Shown here piece by piece: positions 5,293-23,456 of a stretch of 32,228 bases of DNA (positions within the stretch are counted from its first letter, which is position 1; every line of letters starts with the position of its first letter). This stretch comes from Calditrichota bacterium. Lineage in GTDB: Bacteria; Electryoneota; AABM5-125-24; Hatepunaeales; Hatepunaeaceae. The position numbers were made by a program, and so were the translations under genes. The stretch lies in contig VGIQ01000020.1 in NCBI GenBank assembly GCA_016867835.1, positions 1 to 32,228 of the forward strand. The letters run 5' to 3'. The notes below the pieces were generated by a model, which searched no databases, was not told the origin of the DNA, and saw nothing but the letters and a program-made list of their open reading frames with translations.

Positions 5293-5321
5293 AAAGGGGT
5301 GGCTGAAAGTCACCCTCCAAG
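5293..5321. repeat. Palindromic repeat at the 3' end of the bacilliredoxin gene
   Basis: The stem GGGTGGCT (5297-5304), loop GAA and AGTCACCC (5308-5315) is followed by TCCAAG. It ends seven bases beyond the stop codon of the minus-strand bacilliredoxin gene. The CCTCCAAG tail is shared with copies at 7454, 15309 and 16537, while the stem bases differ yet still pair. Confidence 0.55.
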
Positions 5322-7443: not shown

Positions 7444-7453
7444 ACAGATATGC

Positions 7454-13149: not shown

Positions 13150-13157
13150 TTCAAAGT

Positions 13158-13217: not shown

Positions 13218-15575
13218 GTGAAGTCAATAAATCTACTGGTACTTATGCTCGCCATATTGGCTCAAGATATCAAGTCACAGCCTGAATTAGACCTATGGCG
13301 AACATATCATCTCGGCGGTAATGAAGTGTTTGGCGACCTCTATATTCCTGCCGAAGGCGGCTACGTGATTTGCGGCTATTCTCTCGATCGTGGGCTGATT
13401 GCACGTCTTGACGAAGAAGGGAATATTGAATGGAGCACCTTGGTCAATAGCGGCCGCCTTAACAGCATCATCCAGTCCGAAGCCGGTGACTTCATTGCTG
13501 GCGGATATTCCGGTGGCTATTGGGATGGCCATTTCTCTGCCGTGAGATTAACCAGCGATGGCGAAGTGATTTGGCAAAGAGAATACGTCCGACCGGGGAA
13601 ATGTTCAGCTGTAATCGAACTAAAAGACGGGTCATTCGTATTGGCGGGCCAACGAACTCTGGATCAAATGATGCACACAGTAGGTCACGTTATACGAATA
13701 GATGGAGATGGCGAGGCACTTGGGCGTGCCGACTTGCTTGCGCCTGGAAATGAGCAAGATACTTGCACGATATCCTCACTTCGTGAGACTGAGGGAGGAT
13801 TGGTGTTTGCTGGTTTGTTTAGGAGCAATGGATGGCACCGACCATGGGTAGTTAGAACGGACTTCCAAATCAATCCTGTTTGGTCAAATATATTGCGAGG
13901 AGAACTAAGCGTATGGGTGGCCGGAATAGTCTCCACCGAGGGAGGATTCGTTATAGGCACGGAAGATGCCATTCGAGTTGAAGGTAGGTATATTAGAAGA
14001 AGGCCTGCTTTGGCAAAGATTAACAATGATGGAGAAATTGACTGGCAGAGGGTGCATCAACTACCGCTTTCGATGAGTGGTAATGTGGCTGGCATTGGCA
14101 AATTGCGAGACGGATTCACATTATCCGGGTTTATTGCGGAGGTTGATGTTGGATGGTACCCATTCGCCCTCAGAACTAATCTGAACGGAGAATTCATCTG
14201 GATGAGGGGATTTAGAAGAGAAATTGAGGAGACCGGAGTTTTGGATTATCCGAATACATTCAGCAGAGGTATCAGGCAAGTTGGAAATCAAGTAGTGATA
14301 GGCGGACACATTGCCAGTCGCTTGGATGGTAATGGACTGGACGGGCTTATTGTCCGGATGGCACCAGATGTTTTAGGGCCTGAAGTCTTCTACAAACACC
14401 CCGAGGATTCGATTTTGACCGTACTGCAAGAAGATACCATTCGTTTTATCGTGCGGGCCAGGAACAACCATGGCTTTGAAATGAGCTATCAATGGACCTA
14501 CAACAGCCGACCGGTTGCGAGGGACACTACCTTGCTGGTGAGATTCGACACGCTGCGAACCGATACTGTGATTTGTGAAGTAACCGACCCAAATTACACA
14601 GTGAGGATCAGCTGGCTTATCCACGTTCGAAACCTATTCATAGAGACTTATGTCCCTGACTCGCTTCGATTAGTCATACAGCGTAGAAGAGAGATTGAAT
14701 TTGCCATCGAACCTGCCTATTCCGGAGATATGGAGAATTTGCGATATGAGTGGCTGCACTACGATTCCGCGGCGGTGAGGTGGGAGGAAGTGGGAGGGGA
14801 TGACCGTATCGGAATCCGGTCCTACGCGTTCGCCCGGACCGGCGGCTTTGCCCTGAAGGCCAAGGTCTTCGACCCGAACGTCGATCCGGTTCCTGCAGAT
14901 AGTGTCCAGTGGGCGATTCAGGTGCGCGGCGTTATTCGGGCTTATGAGCCCAATCTCCCCGAAATCTCCCTCGAACCGCGGCAGGAAGCGACCTTCGAGT
15001 TAATTCCCTTCAACGTCAACAACGACTCGATTCAGTTCTGGTGGACGCTAAACGAAGCAGACACATTGTCCACCCAGTCACTTCTATCCATATCTTTCCA
15101 AGACACCGGCAGATTTGTTGTGAGCGGCTATGCGCGGGAGCGGGTCGGCGAGGAGGAATGGGAGGAGGACGTGCAGAGGTGGGCGGTGAATGTTCGAATG
15201 TTGAATGCGGAATTCGGAATGCGGAATGAAGGAGACTTGGAAATTGAAGATATTAGTTTGCAGATTGCTCCTAATCCCTTCAACGATCAAGCGACGGTGA
15301 CAGTTGACCTTGGAGGGAAGGCATTCCTGCCTGCCCTAAGGGCGGACAAGAATGTCCGCCCTCCAAGAGCGCAGGTGAGGAGTCTCTTCCCTGTCCGGAT
15401 CGGCCTCTACGCCATAGACGGGCGGGAGGTCCTCCGTCTCCACGACGGCCCCCTATCCCCCGGCACCCATCAGTTTAGATTCTTCACTTCGTTCAGAATG
15501 TCATCGGGAGTCTATTTTCTCCGCCTTCAAACCGGCTCCCATTCCCGGACTGTCAAAACGGTTTTGCTACGTTAG
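13218..15575 (+). CDS. Large secreted beta-rich protein with type A sorting domain
   Basis: A 785-aa protein, GTG start at 13218 with GAGG five bases upstream and an N-terminal signal sequence (INLLVLMLAILAQ). Residues about 25-390 form repeated units of the type 'GGYVICGYS...IARLDEEGNIEW', 'GSFVLAGQR', 'GGFVIGTED', each ending in a W-containing strand, which suggests a beta-propeller. Residues about 395-665 look like Ig-like domains (YQWTYNSRPVARD, YEWLHYDS, FWWTLNEADT). The C terminus (about 680-785) is a sorting module (IAPNPFNDQATVTV, GLYAIDGREVLRL, SSGVYFLRLQTGSHSRTVKT). Two repeat-derived peptides interrupt the C-terminal part: NAEFGMRNE before the sorting domain and KAFLPALRADKNVRPPRAQ inside it. 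Codon use in the first two-thirds is AT-richer than in the tail. Ligand unknown. Confidence 0.82.
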   Translation: MKSINLLVLMLAILAQDIKSQPELDLWRTYHLGGNEVFGDLYIPAEGGYVICGYSLDRGLIARLDEEGNIEWSTLVNSGRLNSIIQSEAGDFIAGGYSGGYWDGHFSAVRLTSDGEVIWQREYVRPGKCSAVIELKDGSFVLAGQRTLDQMMHTVGHVIRIDGDGEALGRADLLAPGNEQDTCTISSLRETEGGLVFAGLFRSNGWHRPWVVRTDFQINPVWSNILRGELSVWVAGIVSTEGGFVIGTEDAIRVEGRYIRRRPALAKINNDGEIDWQRVHQLPLSMSGNVAGIGKLRDGFTLSGFIAEVDVGWYPFALRTNLNGEFIWMRGFRREIEETGVLDYPNTFSRGIRQVGNQVVIGGHIASRLDGNGLDGLIVRMAPDVLGPEVFYKHPEDSILTVLQEDTIRFIVRARNNHGFEMSYQWTYNSRPVARDTTLLVRFDTLRTDTVICEVTDPNYTVRISWLIHVRNLFIETYVPDSLRLVIQRRREIEFAIEPAYSGDMENLRYEWLHYDSAAVRWEEVGGDDRIGIRSYAFARTGGFALKAKVFDPNVDPVPADSVQWAIQVRGVIRAYEPNLPEISLEPRQEATFELIPFNVNNDSIQFWWTLNEADTLSTQSLLSISFQDTGRFVVSGYARERVGEEEWEEDVQRWAVNVRMLNAEFGMRNEGDLEIEDISLQIAPNPFNDQATVTVDLGGKAFLPALRADKNVRPPRAQVRSLFPVRIGLYAIDGREVLRLHDGPLSPGTHQFRFFTSFRMSSGVYFLRLQTGSHSRTVKTVLLR
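15309..15367. repeat. Two-hairpin palindromic repeat inside a coding region
   Basis: It starts CTTGGAGGG and ends CCCTCCAAG, exactly like the copy at 16537-16616 but with a shorter centre. The second hairpin is GGGCGGACA (15340-15348), loop AGAA, TGTCCGCCC (15353-15361). The first hairpin is decayed (GGCATTCCTGCC). It is read in frame in the sorting domain of the 13218-15575 protein. Confidence 0.8.
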
Positions 15576-15576
15576 C

Positions 15577-15603
15577 CTTGAAGGGCGGGATGAATCCCGC
15601 CCC
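15577..15603. repeat. Palindromic repeat directly after a stop codon
   Basis: CTTGAAGGGC begins one base after the stop of the 13218-15575 gene. GGGCGGGAT (15583-15591) pairs perfectly with ATCCCGCCC (15594-15602). The stem differs from the 15340 copy but remains paired. It may act as an mRNA 3'-end hairpin for the preceding gene. Confidence 0.6.
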
Positions 15604-16420: not shown

Positions 16421-16475
16421 CCGTAGAATGGGCATTCCTGCCCGCCCTTGGGACAGACAAGAATGTCTGTCCTAC
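16421..16475. repeat. Two-hairpin palindromic repeat, stem variant
   Basis: Hairpin 1 is GGGCA-TTCC-TGCCC (16430-16443). Hairpin 2 is GGACAGACA (16451-16459), loop AGAA, TGTCTGTCC (16464-16472). The loops equal those of the 16537 copy while hairpin 2 has a different, still fully paired stem. Confidence 0.75.
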
Positions 16476-16536
16476 TGATGCTACTATTTGATGCTCCTAC
16501 TAATACTATTAGGAGGTGCAGATTATTGTTGCCGTT

Positions 16537-16616
16537 CTTGGAGGGCGGACATTCCTGTCCGCCCTGATGAAGAGTTCCTATTAGGCAAGGGCGGACAAGA
16601 TTGTCCGCCCTCCAAG
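16537..16616. repeat. Two-hairpin palindromic repeat, best-preserved copy
   Basis: Outer ends CTTGGAGGG and CCCTCCAAG are inverted. Hairpin 1 is GGGCGGACA (16543-16551), TTCC, TGTCCGCCC. Hairpin 2 is GGGCGGACA (16589-16597), AGAT, TGTCCGCCC (16602-16610). A 24-base spacer separates the two. The layout is like a REP doublet (BIME). Confidence 0.8.
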
Positions 16617-16640: not shown

Positions 16641-16791
16641 TACTACATGGTGCAGTTAGTTCTTGTCTTCTCCCCCCCGCTTCGCGGGGGGGAATAAAAA
16701 GGGGGGGTAATATGGGGTTGCACTTCTACCCCCCTATAGTCCTCCCGCGAAGCGGGGGGGAGAATTCAAAAACAATCTGCACCAAGCAATT
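16641..16791. repeat. MITE-like element with inverted ends, copy 2
   Basis: Bounded by GGTGCAG (16649) and CTGCACC (16777-16783). The left arm (GTTAGTTCTTGTCTTCTCCC, then a GCTTCGC-looped C/G hairpin and GGGGGGGTAAT) is the reverse complement of the right arm of copy 1. A second C/G hairpin with a GCGAAGC loop lies near 16743-16759. The arms differ from each other more than from copy 1. Confidence 0.65.
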
Positions 16792-17139: not shown

Positions 17140-20100
17140 ATGAACGCTCGTCTGTTGCTCCCCCCCGTTCTTCTTGTGCTGCTGACTGCCCTCCCGCTTA
17201 AGGCCCGCATCCTCAACGTGCCGGACGACTTCGACCGCATTCAGACCGCGATCGACTCATCGGCCCACGGCGACACCGTCCTGATCGCCCCGGGCATCTA
17301 TATCGAGACGATCAACTATAGCGGCCGCAACATCACCGTCGCCAGCCGGCACCTCCTCACCGCCGATGACCGCGACATCCTGGAAACGATCATCCAAAGA
17401 CCGGCTAACAGCAATCGCAGCCTCGTCGTCGTCCGGTCGGGCGAATCACAGGGCACCCAACTGGTCGGGCTCACCCTCCGCGGCGCCCGGACCGACTACG
17501 GCGGCGGCATCTACGTCGCCGAATGGTCGGAACTGGCGATCCGTAGCGTTCGCATCACCGACTGCCGCGCCAGTCGAAGCGGCGGCGGCCTCTATGTCAC
17601 CCGCAACAGCAACTGCATCGCCTCCGACCTCTGGGTGACCGACTGCCAGGCAACCACCTCCGGCGGCGGCGTCTGCTTCTTCGACACCTCGTTTGTCTAT
17701 CTGGAAGACTGCCAGTTGCGCGGCAACACCGCCCAATTCGGCGGAGGTCTGGCGTTCTTCAACTACAACGGCATCCATCCCGGCAGCGCCCGCATTCTGC
17801 GTGCTACCATTGAGAATAACACGGCAAGTGTCTCCGGCGGGGGCGTCTATCTGACGAGTTACCAATTCCGCGACTCTGTCCATTTTGAAGACTGCCGCAT
17901 TGCCGGAAACTCGGCGCAACGTGGAGGGGGACTCTATTTAACCCAGTCACGCCTGACGGTCGTCCTGAACGATTGTGAAGTCGCCGGGAACGAAGCCTCT
18001 AACGTCGGCGGCGCAATATGCATCTCGGACCTCGAATCCCTTGCCTCGTTGATCATACGCCGGAGCATTTTTCGCGAGAACGCCTCCCCGCAAGGCGGCG
18101 CCATCTATGGGTATTCAAACTCATCGTTTCCCGTGGCGCTGGAGCACTCTCTAATCGTCGGGAATCGATCGACCAACATCGCTGCAGCGATCTACATCGG
18201 CCGCCCGCTCCTGATGACCAACTGCACCATTGCCGCCAACCACGCCGACTCCAACGGGGTGATCCTCCTCCGCGCCCGTCGCAAGAGCGTCCTGCGCAAC
18301 GTGATTTTCTGGGGCAATGAATCCCGCGATCTGCCCATATCGGGCGCGACCGACACCATCGACGTCGCCTACTCCCTCATCGAGGGTGGTGAGGAATCGG
18401 TCACGGGGGAGCGCGTCATCTGGGGCGAGGGGAACCTCAACGAGCCGCCGATCTTTGCCGATCCCGAACGCGGCGACTATCGCCTAAGTTGGGCTAATTA
18501 CCCCGAGAACGACGACTCCCGCTCGCCCGGCATCGACGGCGGCGACCCCGCGACCGGCTGGGACCCCGACGGAAGTTTGAACGACATCGGCGCTCTCCCC
18601 TATTTTCAGCGTGGCGGGCTTCTCTTCGGGCATATCACGCGGCTCGCGGACGGTTCGCCGGTCGCCGGAGCAAGCGTCCGGTTCGACGACCAGCCGGGAC
18701 TGGTAACTGACGCTCAAGGCAACTACCGGTTCCTCAATATCCTGCCCCGGGTGGCTTCGTTGGTCGTTACCGCATCAGGCTTCAATGACTCCATCTCGGG
18801 AGCGATCTTCGTCGATATCGGAGGCGAACTCGAGTGGAACGTCGCCTTGCGTCACCCCGAGATGACCCTTGACCGGCAGCAGATCGCAACGATCACCGAG
18901 CCGGGCGATTCAACAACCGTCGAGTTCACGCTCACCAACCGCGGCACCGGGACGTTGAGTTGGACGGCTGAAGCCCAGGGGCGGGGGATGATGGGGCGGG
19001 AGATCGGTAGTGAAGTCCTTCGCCTGCCGCTCTTTGAACGAACCGGCATCGACCGCTATCAGGGCGTGGCGCTTATCGACGGGCGCTTCTACTGCGCCGG
19101 TGCCGACCGCAACTTCGATCCACCCCGCAAGGTCATCCACATCTTCAGTCCTGAAGGCGAGTTGCTCGACTCCCTCGATCAACCGGAAGGAGAAAGCCGA
19201 TACGGAATGACCGACATTGCATATGGTTCCAATCTCCTCTGGGGGGCAAATGGCCGGCGAGTCTTCGGGCTTGATTTGCGCGGTGCCGGGATATTTGCGG
19301 AGTTTGAGACGATAGTCGTTCCAGTGGGTGCGCTGGCATACGACTCGATGCGTGATCTAATCTGGGTGTGCGGCAGCACCAGCACAAGCCGGCTGTTCGC
19401 ATATAGCCGCGCCGGGGTTATCCAGGACACAGTCTTAAATCGCAGCTTGCGCATCTATGGTTTGGAATATGTCCCCGACGACCCTGACGGCTACTGCTTC
19501 TATGCGCTAATCCACCATCCAGCGTACCCGGAAAACGCCGGTAGTCTCTACAAGTTCCATCCCGAAACCGGCGATACGATCAGGGTTTACGGGCCTGACC
19601 CACTGTTGGGCAATATGTTGGGGCTGCATATCACCCCCGGCTTCGACCCCTTCCCGAGCCTGGTTGGCTGGACGATCGACAATATACCGGTCAACCTGGG
19701 CGGCGACGCGCTTGTCGGCTTGAGTTTGGGAGCCTCGCTCGACTGGATTCGCCTCGAGCCTCTGCTCGGCACGACGCCCGCCGGCGGACGCGAGACCCTA
19801 CGCCTCACCCTCTCCGCCCGCGATCTTCAGCGCGGGCTGTTCGAGGGCGCGGTCATCTTCCGCCACAACGCCATCCCCTTCGAGACCGAGTTGCCATTCG
19901 CCTTGCGCGTCGAGCCGAACGCGGCTCCGCCGGACGATGCGCTCCCCCTCGAGTTCGCCCTTCACCCGGTCTATCCGAACCCGTTTAATGGCCGGGCGAC
20001 GGTAACCTTCGACCTGCCCGAGCAAGCCGCCTCCCGCATCCTCCTGTTCGACCTTTCCGGGCGAGTCGTGAGTCTTATCGAATCCGGGCCGCTCGAGGCG

Positions 20101-20211
20101 GGACGGCACCGTATTGCGCTCGATACAGCCAACCTGCCGAGCGGGGTTTACGGGCTGAGATTGGAGGACGAGAGGCGGTCGCAGTCGCGCAAAGTCGTAG
20201 TGCTGAAGTGA
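17140..20211 (+). CDS. Secreted parallel beta-helix protein with type A sorting domain
   Basis: A 1023-aa protein with a signal peptide (LLLPPVLLVLLTALPLKA, cleavage about residue 22) from ATG 17140, preceded by AAGGA. Residues about 25-430 are a right-handed parallel beta-helix with repeated GGG[IL]Y-type turns (GGGIYV, GGGLYV, GGGVCF, GGGLAF, GGGVYL, GGGLYL, GGAICI, GGAIYG). The helix is closed by FADPERGDYRLSW and SPGIDGGDP. A carboxypeptidase-regulatory-like Ig domain follows (about 490-570, GHITRLADGSPVAGASVRFD), then a propeller-like region (about 575-930). The sorting domain occupies the last ~85 residues (HPVYPNPFNGRATVTFDL, LPSGVYGLRLEDE, KVVVLK). It is probably exported by type IX secretion and surface-attached. 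An adhesive or polysaccharide-binding role is plausible, but no catalytic residues are evident. The next gene is a paralogue. Confidence 0.88.
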   Translation: MNARLLLPPVLLVLLTALPLKARILNVPDDFDRIQTAIDSSAHGDTVLIAPGIYIETINYSGRNITVASRHLLTADDRDILETIIQRPANSNRSLVVVRSGESQGTQLVGLTLRGARTDYGGGIYVAEWSELAIRSVRITDCRASRSGGGLYVTRNSNCIASDLWVTDCQATTSGGGVCFFDTSFVYLEDCQLRGNTAQFGGGLAFFNYNGIHPGSARILRATIENNTASVSGGGVYLTSYQFRDSVHFEDCRIAGNSAQRGGGLYLTQSRLTVVLNDCEVAGNEASNVGGAICISDLESLASLIIRRSIFRENASPQGGAIYGYSNSSFPVALEHSLIVGNRSTNIAAAIYIGRPLLMTNCTIAANHADSNGVILLRARRKSVLRNVIFWGNESRDLPISGATDTIDVAYSLIEGGEESVTGERVIWGEGNLNEPPIFADPERGDYRLSWANYPENDDSRSPGIDGGDPATGWDPDGSLNDIGALPYFQRGGLLFGHITRLADGSPVAGASVRFDDQPGLVTDAQGNYRFLNILPRVASLVVTASGFNDSISGAIFVDIGGELEWNVALRHPEMTLDRQQIATITEPGDSTTVEFTLTNRGTGTLSWTAEAQGRGMMGREIGSEVLRLPLFERTGIDRYQGVALIDGRFYCAGADRNFDPPRKVIHIFSPEGELLDSLDQPEGESRYGMTDIAYGSNLLWGANGRRVFGLDLRGAGIFAEFETIVVPVGALAYDSMRDLIWVCGSTSTSRLFAYSRAGVIQDTVLNRSLRIYGLEYVPDDPDGYCFYALIHHPAYPENAGSLYKFHPETGDTIRVYGPDPLLGNMLGLHITPGFDPFPSLVGWTIDNIPVNLGGDALVGLSLGASLDWIRLEPLLGTTPAGGRETLRLTLSARDLQRGLFEGAVIFRHNAIPFETELPFALRVEPNAAPPDDALPLEFALHPVYPNPFNGRATVTFDLPEQAASRILLFDLSGRVVSLIESGPLEAGRHRIALDTANLPSGVYGLRLEDERRSQSRKVVVLK

Positions 20212-20258
20212 TTTATTCCCACCCGAGAGGATAAAGTGCAGTGATTCAATCCGCCTCC

Positions 20259-20343
20259 AGTAGGACAGACATTCCTGTCTGTCCTACTCGTGAATCGCAC
20301 ACTACCGTCAGAAGCACGGACAGACAAGAATGTCTGTCCCACT
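20259..20343. repeat. Two-hairpin palindromic repeat between the beta-helix paralogues
   Basis: Hairpin 1 has a perfect 13-bp stem AGTAGGACAGACA (20259-20271), loop TTCC, TGTCTGTCCTACT (20276-20288). Hairpin 2 is GGACAGACA (20318-20326), AGAA, TGTCTGTCC (20331-20339). It lies about 50 bases after the stop of the upstream gene. Confidence 0.8.
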
Positions 20344-20378
20344 GAATAGGTGTCTGATCAAATGCAAACTGGTATGAT

Positions 20379-21266: not shown

Positions 21267-23456
21267 ATGTATGGCGCCGCCCTCCGTTTTGTTCGAGAGG
21301 CGAATGGCAAGGTGTCGAATTCTATATTTATGGGAAATCAAAGTTCCTCTGGTGCGGTAGTAAATGCTTTTGGCTATTCTAATGATGCCAATATTATACT
21401 TGAATTTGACAAGTGTGTGATAGCAGGCAACATAAGCACCTCCCGGTATCCCCTTATCCAAATTTGGCAAAGGTCGAGGATTGAGGGTTGCACGATTTTC
21501 GATAATGATCTCGGTCCGGGGACACTGGCCGATCTTAGCTACCAAAATCAACCTACTGTTGTGCGCAACACAATGATTTTACGAAATGTCGCCCAGGGAG
21601 GAGTAAGGCCAATGGCTATATCTCGCGGCGACATCAGTTACTGCAACATCGAGGGAGGAAGAAATGCCATAACATCCAACAACCTCACCTGGGGCCCCGG
21701 CAACTTCGATGTCGCGCCGATTTTCGCCGATCCCGACGAAGGCGACTACCGGCTTGCTTGGGCGAACTACCCAACCCTTGACGGCACCCGTTCCCCCGGC
21801 ATCGACGCGGGCGACCCGGCATCGGGCTGGGATACTGACGGCAGCCGCCGCGACATTGGCGCACTGCCCTTCTATCAGCGCGGCGGTGAGATAATTGGCC
21901 AGGTCACCCGGCTCTTGGACGGCGCGCCAGTAGCGGGCGCACGGGTTAGATTCGGGGATCAGATTCCTACCACCTCCGGCTTCGACGGTTGGTTTCGCAT
22001 CCTTAATGCCCTTCCTCGACGTGGAGTGCTTTCTGTAATCGCCACCGGCTATGTTGACTATTTTTCAGATTCACTATTCGTTCCGATTGGCGAGGAGTTG
22101 AGTTGGAATCTCTCCCTGCGCCATGCTGAGTTCACCATCGACCGGCGAGCCATCGACTTGACCCTAGAGCCGGGCGATTCTGCAGAGATTGCGCTCGCCG
22201 TCCAAAATGGCGGAACCGCACAGTCGAATTGGACCTCAACGATCGTCGAGCGGGGTGTTATTGGGAATCGGCTGGGGGACGAGGTGTTGCGTCTAAATTT
22301 GTCAGAGAATTTCAGAAGCGATCGTTTCAGAGGCGTGGCACTGATCGACAGCCTCTTTTATTGTGTCGGTGCACTTGAAGCTGTCAATCCTCCCCGGAAA
22401 CTCATCTATATTCTGAACCGTCAAGGCGACTTTCTCGAAGTTATGAACCAGCCGGAGAGCCAATCACAATTGGGTATGACTGACCTCGCTTATGGCGGCA
22501 GACTGTTGTGGGGAGCACAATTGAACCGCGTCTTTGGCTTCGATCTGAATGGCGCGGGAGTATTCGTAGAGTTCGATGTGACACCGAATCCGGCGCAAGC
22601 CGTGGCTTACGATTCCGACCGCGACGAGATTTGGGTGTGCGCTGTTGCCAGCAACATCTTTTGTTACAATCGCGCAGGTGTGCAGCAGAGATCAGTCAAC
22701 CGCCTGGGACTACGCATCTATGGCTTGGAATACATCAACGACGATCCTGACGGCTACTGTCTCTATGCGCTTACGCACCAACCCGGCTGCCTCTATAAGT
22801 TTCATTCCGAAACCGGCGATACGATTCGTATTTTTGGCCCCGATCCGCGACTTGGGACAATGCAGGGGCTGCATATAACCCCTGGAATATACCCCTTTCC
22901 CAGTCTCGCCGGCTGGACGATCGACATCCGCCACGCCAATCAGGACGGTGACCATCTTGTTGGGCTGCACTTGGGGACGGACTTCAGATGGGTGACTCTT
23001 GAGCCAAATGCCGGGACGATTCTCGCTGGGGAGAGGATAAACTCGACCCTCACCCTCTCGGCCCGCGACCTGCAGCGAGGGCTTTTCGAGGGCGCGGTCA
23101 TCTTTCGCCACAACGCCATCCCCTTCGAGACCGAGTTGCCGTTCGCCTTGCGCGTCGAGCCGAACGCGGCTCCGGAGGGCGATGCGCTCCCCCTCACGTT
23201 CGCCCTTCACCCGGTCTATCCGAACCCGTTCAACAGCCGGGCGACGGTAACCTTCGACCTGCCCGAGCGAGCCGCCTCCCGCATCCTCCTGTTCGACCTT
23301 TCCGGGCGGGTCGTGAGTCTTATCGAATCCGGGCCGCTCGAGGCGGGACGGCACCGCATCGCACTCGATGCCGCCAACCTGCCGAGCGGGGTTTACGGGC
23401 TGAGATTGGAGGACGGGAGGCGGTCGCAGTCGCGCAAGGTCGTGGTGCTGAAGTGA
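21267..23456 (+). pseudogene. Beta-helix paralogue, C-terminal part with sorting domain
   Basis: The same frame as the upstream piece continues from 21192 to the stop at 23456. The first ATG is at 21267, with AGGA eight bases before it. It holds the rest of the helix (NSIFMGNQSSSGAV), FADPDEGDYRLAW, SPGIDAGDPASGW, the regulatory-like Ig domain (GQVTRLLDGAPVAGARVRFG), the propeller-like region and the sorting tail (HPVYPNPFNSRATVTFDL, KVVVLK). With the first piece it makes 1025 codons against 1023 aa for its neighbour, so nothing but the stop is missing. Without the signal peptide this half could not be exported. The last ~410 bases are nearly identical to the upstream paralogue while the middle is much more diverged. 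Confidence 0.8.

Follow-up and report, generated by a model that had tools for sequence, protein, structure and literature searches.

The paired hairpins of the window, by which we mean the whole 32,228-nt stretch of DNA analysed here (contig C20 of an assembly of 2.9 Mb and 214 contigs from an uncultured bacterium), belong to a REP/REPIN family with compensated stems and a near-constant loop. Very probably they are non-autonomous miniature elements, mostly inverted doublets of the kind called REPINs or BIMEs, which are copied by a RAYT, a REP-associated tyrosine transposase of the Y1/HUH, IS200-like type. The genome carries a RAYT gene that is flanked by the same hairpins, and the corresponding gene is intact in relatives. 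One point against this reading is that many units are headed by GGAG, the canonical head being GTAG.

On the forward strand the palindromic unit reads GGRCRGRCA-TTCC-TGYCYGYCC, and it consists of a four-base head at the 5' end (GTAG or GGAG) and a GC-rich stem, some 8–9 bp long, with the loop TTC[C/T]. GTAG heads one group of copies and GGAG the other, relatives have GTAG, GTGG or GGAG, and the CGTC tag is absent. The original prediction described two hairpins per copy, with loops TTCC and AGAA/AGAT, at 15309–15367, 16421–16475, 16537–16616 and 20259–20343, and all of these are present. The "AGAA/AGAT" hairpin is a REP unit on the opposite strand, where its loop is TTCT or ATCT; hence both hairpins of each copy represent a single unit, the second being inverted. 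Inverted units are separated by a linker of about 3 or about 24 nt. The list of perfect hairpins in the window, with a minimum stem of 8 bp, has 29 entries, some hairpins being entered several times with different loops, against 2–7 in dinucleotide-model sequences. An Rfam search returned tRNA only. A covariance model made from 38 units, partly those of the window itself, matched seven window units at 37–49 bits with filters off.

The first pair lies inside a 785-aa gene (13218–15575, + strand; defined by ORF, Pfam and paralogue comparison), in frame and within its C-terminal Por_Secre_tail domain. Its halves are a unit with loop TTCC (GGGAAGGCATTCCTGCCTGCCC) at 15310–15341 on the + strand (cmsearch, 37.4 bits, E 8e-10) and one at 15335–15366 on the − strand with loop TTCT (AGAA on +; 49.2 bits), giving a start-to-start spacing of 25 nt. 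Next come a decayed unit (AGAATGGGCATTCCTGCCCGCCCT; repeat D3) at 16425–16448 (+), matched at 15.3 bits over the core 16430–16443 only, and a GTAG-headed unit (CAGTAGGACAGACATTCTTGTCTGTCC on the − strand) at 16446–16477 (−; 47.7 bits). The GGAG-headed unit TTGGAGGGCGGACATTCCTGTCCGCCC at 16538–16569 (+; 47.8 bits) and its inverted partner with loop ATCT at 16584–16615 (−; 40.1 bits; inverted repeat I5) form a REPIN of 46-nt spacing, the arms of which (16537–16565 and 16588–16616) are 93% complementary. Finally, a GTAG-headed unit (CAGTAGGACAGACATTCCTGTCTGTCC) at 20258–20289 (+; 47.2 bits) and its inverted partner at 20313–20344 (−; 38.2 bits; inverted repeat I7) constitute a REPIN of 55-nt spacing downstream of a gene that ends at 20211. 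Stem pairing is imperfect in the first hairpins at 15309 (an A/G mismatch) and 16421 (GGGCA, the 15-bit match). The four "simpler relatives" that had been proposed are not clear members of the family: those at 13156 (E = 0.004) and 15578 (E = 0.02) are weak, and those at 7449 (E = 0.65) and 5291 (E = 0.85) score at chance level in the covariance model, so that sites 5293 and 7454 were rejected. A second inverted-repeat family, of the CCCCCCGCTTCGCGGGGGG type, was seen in the window at 992–1099 and 16648–16784; genome-wide it has about 49 matches with at most 2 mismatches, some places being counted on both strands, and the reversed control has 0.

Across the genome the covariance-model search accepted 149 of the 150 candidates that it scored, so that there are at least 149 REP units, in 81 clusters. 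Inverted pairs occur in 57 of the 81 clusters, and 42 of those 57 have a start-to-start spacing of exactly 25 nt, by far the commonest value, with 46 nt ranking second. Three forms of the element were distinguished: GTAG-headed pairs of 25-nt spacing between genes, GGAG-headed pairs of 46-nt spacing between genes, and GGAG-headed pairs of 25-nt spacing, which were seen only inside genes. Single units and direct-repeat arrays also occur, such as the three same-strand units on contig C29 and beside the RAYT gene.

The compensated change of the stems, which had been predicted from a few copies, holds well beyond the window. The pattern GGNNNNNCATTCCTGNNNNNCC, in which the N arms are free and pairing is not demanded, has 67 genomic matches against 0 for the reversed control, and the N-arm pairs in these matches comprise 311 Watson-Crick, 16 G-U and 8 mismatched. 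In a set of 52 distinct units, Watson-Crick pairs make up 422 of 468, compared with a mean of 354 and a maximum of 374 in 1,000 shuffles; kinship among the sequences inflates such counts, but the direction of the result is clear. The 38-unit alignment was picked for pairing, and its 100% paired score therefore proves nothing. The constant loop and covarying stem of the original prediction match the published picture of REPs and RAYTs. Compensation alone is no proof of an mRNA function, because it is also predicted if a RAYT recognises folded single-stranded DNA.

A REP-associated tyrosine transposase, proposed beforehand as a check, was found on contig C98 with the same repeats on both sides, three REP units upstream and two inverted units downstream, and the REP/BIME-like reading was right in this respect. 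Pfam Y1_Tnp identified three genes in the genome, and for all three proteins the best family is NCBIfam REP_Tyr_transpos at 75–76 bits, just below the cut-off of 80. The C98 gene is interrupted by one internal TGA. The other two Y1 genes are flanked by palindrome families of a different type: the second RAYT (L032, G000:C102, about 1095–2180) lies amid repeat arrays of 72-nt period with GTAG-headed CGCCGAAT-TCCG-ATTCGGCG hairpins, and the third gene (L033, G000:C89, about 1277–1904) has flanking palindromes GTCAGGTG...CACCTGAC. That RAYTs are flanked by inverted REPs is established in an earlier report (PMC2817692).

Homologues of the RAYT in three relatives (G018, G027 and G021) are open, begin with RRxLPHW and are bracketed by CATTC[CT]TG hairpins, whose heads include GTAG and GTGG. 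The intact RAYTs of relatives contain the HUH motif (H-x-H) and the catalytic Tyr (Y..NP), and one of them matches E. coli TnpA_REP (PDB 4er8) at E 1e-6. Flanking hairpins are weaker, less regular or variant at the RAYTs of G006, G014, G002 and G091, and many other RAYTs from the clade search have unrelated hairpins. A search for related loci with the local RAYT as query returned distant RAYTs only, in the flanks of which model R1 had no match. Over 147 genomes, the RAYT clade is present in 13 of 19 repeat-positive and 19 of 128 repeat-negative genomes (Fisher p 3e-6), and within the phylum in 12 of 16 versus 5 of 23 (p 0.001); this co-occurrence is partly phylogenetic, reflecting shared ancestry. 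Six repeat-positive genomes (G004, G008, G011, G030, G092 and G132) gave no match to the RAYT clade at E 1e-8, though all except G132 have some RAYT.

In the mechanism that we propose, the spreading element would be two inverted units with their linker of about 3 or 24 nt, as in REPINs, for which the inverted doublet is the replicative unit and compensatory changes are known (PMC3116915). The RAYT would recognise the folded single strand via head and loop, cut beside it and join copies elsewhere; the stem would then be free to drift, in paired steps only, while the loop would stay nearly fixed. A loop that is conserved across genera and beside its transposase fits the loop-dependent recognition reported for TnpA_REP (PMC8266576). 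A RAYT of the C98 type would be the agent that mobilises the repeats. Since the local gene has an internal TGA, the family may no longer be spreading in this organism, or a different copy may act, and for this genome current mobilisation is a matter of inference.

Placement was assessed with gene positions from a simple home-made ORF caller, and bears on the proposal that selection keeps the hairpins at gene ends as intrinsic terminators or to stabilise mRNA 3' ends, a reading that we consider unlikely. Of the 81 clusters, 49 are intergenic and 21 genic; the other 11 lie at contig edges or at the ends of retrieved stretches. Between genes, 44 lie in co-directional gaps, 5 in convergent and none of the 49 in divergent ones (13.7% expected, p 7e-4), and 32 of the 49 are within 100 nt of a stop codon against 45% at random, a modest enrichment; these counts, together with the stability of the folds, speak for a role at gene ends. 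Avoidance of divergent gaps is, however, general to REP families (PMC3733652). Within 50 nt of a stop there is no enrichment (11 of 49 against 31% at random), and the statement that seven of eight window sites begin within about 50 bases of a stop conflicts with the two exceptions given along with it. No T-rich tract (at least 5 T in 8 nt) follows any of the 174 intergenic hairpin ends, hence these are not intrinsic terminators, and the repeats flank a transposase gene and also sit in coding frames. When the 20 paralogue copies described below are set aside, genic clusters account for only 1 of the 50 that were classified, compared with 88% expected. The mild preference for 3' ends may arise because the element avoids promoter regions and coding sequence, and its distribution is in keeping with an element tolerated at the least harmful sites.

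Near-palindromic doublets whose outer arms match, such as TTGGAGGGCGG...CCGCCCTCCAA, would also be given by MITEs, miniature elements of a DDE transposon that has terminal inverted repeats. Each unit, though, is a hairpin in its own right, it also occurs singly and in direct-repeat arrays (on C29 and beside the RAYT gene), and the associated enzyme is Y1/HUH and not DDE, which makes this origin highly improbable. That unrelated GC-rich hairpins are alike by chance or composition would fit the weaker sites at 5293 and 7454. For the main copies chance is refuted by the reversed-pattern control, the exactly recurring doublet spacing and the loop shared with RAYT-flanking hairpins in other genera, and as a general account it is scarcely credible. 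What survives of the original prediction, then, is the REP/BIME-like family, now with its RAYT, the hairpins and their compensation; the terminator reading is unsupported, the 3'-end preference is only mild, and the simpler relatives and the stop-codon count had to be corrected.

The pair at 15309, noted beforehand as an in-gene exception, is indeed inside a gene, and it belongs to a set of 25 REPINs that occupy the same codon position, in frame, in one Por_Secre_tail paralogue subfamily. In 20 of the 21 genic clusters the REPIN has the same frame, orientation and site, 209–263 nt from the gene end. The insert encodes LGGKAFLPALRADKNVRPP in the window gene; the match of the window copy to Pfam PF18962 (Por_Secre_tail) is weak (E 9e-5, residues 4–101 of the 104-aa tail, profile positions 3–74). 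With the domain minus its insert as query, 25 close matches were obtained (65–95% identity), all of them REPIN-bearing sites, and the next match, at 44% identity, aligns straight across the REPIN site. About 100 further such domains in the genome, and the best matches in 20 relatives, align through the site without a REPIN, the relatives searched being of other genera. The simplest history has a single insertion, after which the domain spread among paralogues: one REPIN entered a Por_Secre_tail domain in frame, and all 25 members of the subfamily now carry it.

In 21 comparable copies the element has a third-position diversity of 0.036, compared with 0.33 in the sequence immediately upstream and 0.28 in that immediately downstream, and the element window is the lowest of 498 windows over 16 full genes. 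Of the 19 element codons 3 are variable at the third position, versus 39 of 49 flanking codons (p 2e-6), whereas at first and second positions there is no significant difference between element and flanks. Variants upstream of the element occur in mixed combinations with those downstream of it, so the region recombines; when the tree of element variants was set against gene history, the flanking codons were themselves scrambled. Any one of four causes could account for the low third-position variation: selection on DNA or RNA structure, REP-level conversion, a later insertion event at a single site, or effects of assembly around repeats. We put forward only tentatively that a REPIN was captured as a 19-codon segment of the Por_Secre_tail sorting domain and amplified to 25 paralogues, that the DNA and not the peptide alone is held constant, by selection or REP-level homogenisation, and that the element may anchor recombining variable C-terminal cassettes. 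A mobile palindrome at one codon site in 25 paralogues of secreted proteins is unusual, and the set offers a testable case of mobile DNA taken into coding sequence under DNA-level constraint.

Other repeats were noted around these genes. In the linker before the C-terminal domain of in-gene family members such as L052, L062, L068 and L090, upstream of the in-frame REPIN, the peptide LDSGFRRNDD resembles another palindromic repeat in translation. The 15577-type hairpin (GGCGGGATNNATCCCGCC; GGCGGGATGAATCCCGCC, window 15583–15602) directly after the gene end is a separate motif with 11 genomic sites, several of which come right after members of the in-gene paralogue family. The neighbouring Por_Secre_tail genes at 17140–20211 and 21267–23456 have a 300-nt stretch in common at 94% identity (19803–20102 and 23048–23347), a sign of recent duplication or conversion.

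The element kind itself is already known, and the present work adds a RAYT/REPIN family from an uncultured lineage. The elements described here resemble the REPINs of Pseudomonas fluorescens SBW25 (Bertels and Rainey 2011, PMC3116915) in that the REPs form inverted doublets at a preferred spacing, lie mostly outside genes, show compensatory changes and are associated with RAYTs. They differ in loop and stem sequence and in having GTAG or GGAG heads; moreover, the local RAYT is broken, and one type of REPIN is fixed within a gene family of 25 members. GTAG-tagged REPs and REPtrons (Di Nocera et al. 2013, PMC3733652; Nunvar et al. 2010, PMC2817692) share with them a GTAG-headed palindrome, seen here in one group of copies, a RAYT flanked by inverted REPs, the preference for unidirectional and convergent gaps and the presence of some REPs inside ORFs, whereas in the present genome the variant head GGAG is common. 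The portions of these papers that were consulted describe no paralogue-wide REPIN at a single codon position such as the one found here. The Rickettsia palindromic elements, as summarised in PMC3733652, likewise place a palindromic repeat in frame in protein-coding genes; theirs are CGTC-tagged and occur in various genes, in contrast to the one site, the one paralogue family and the accompanying RAYT in the present genome.
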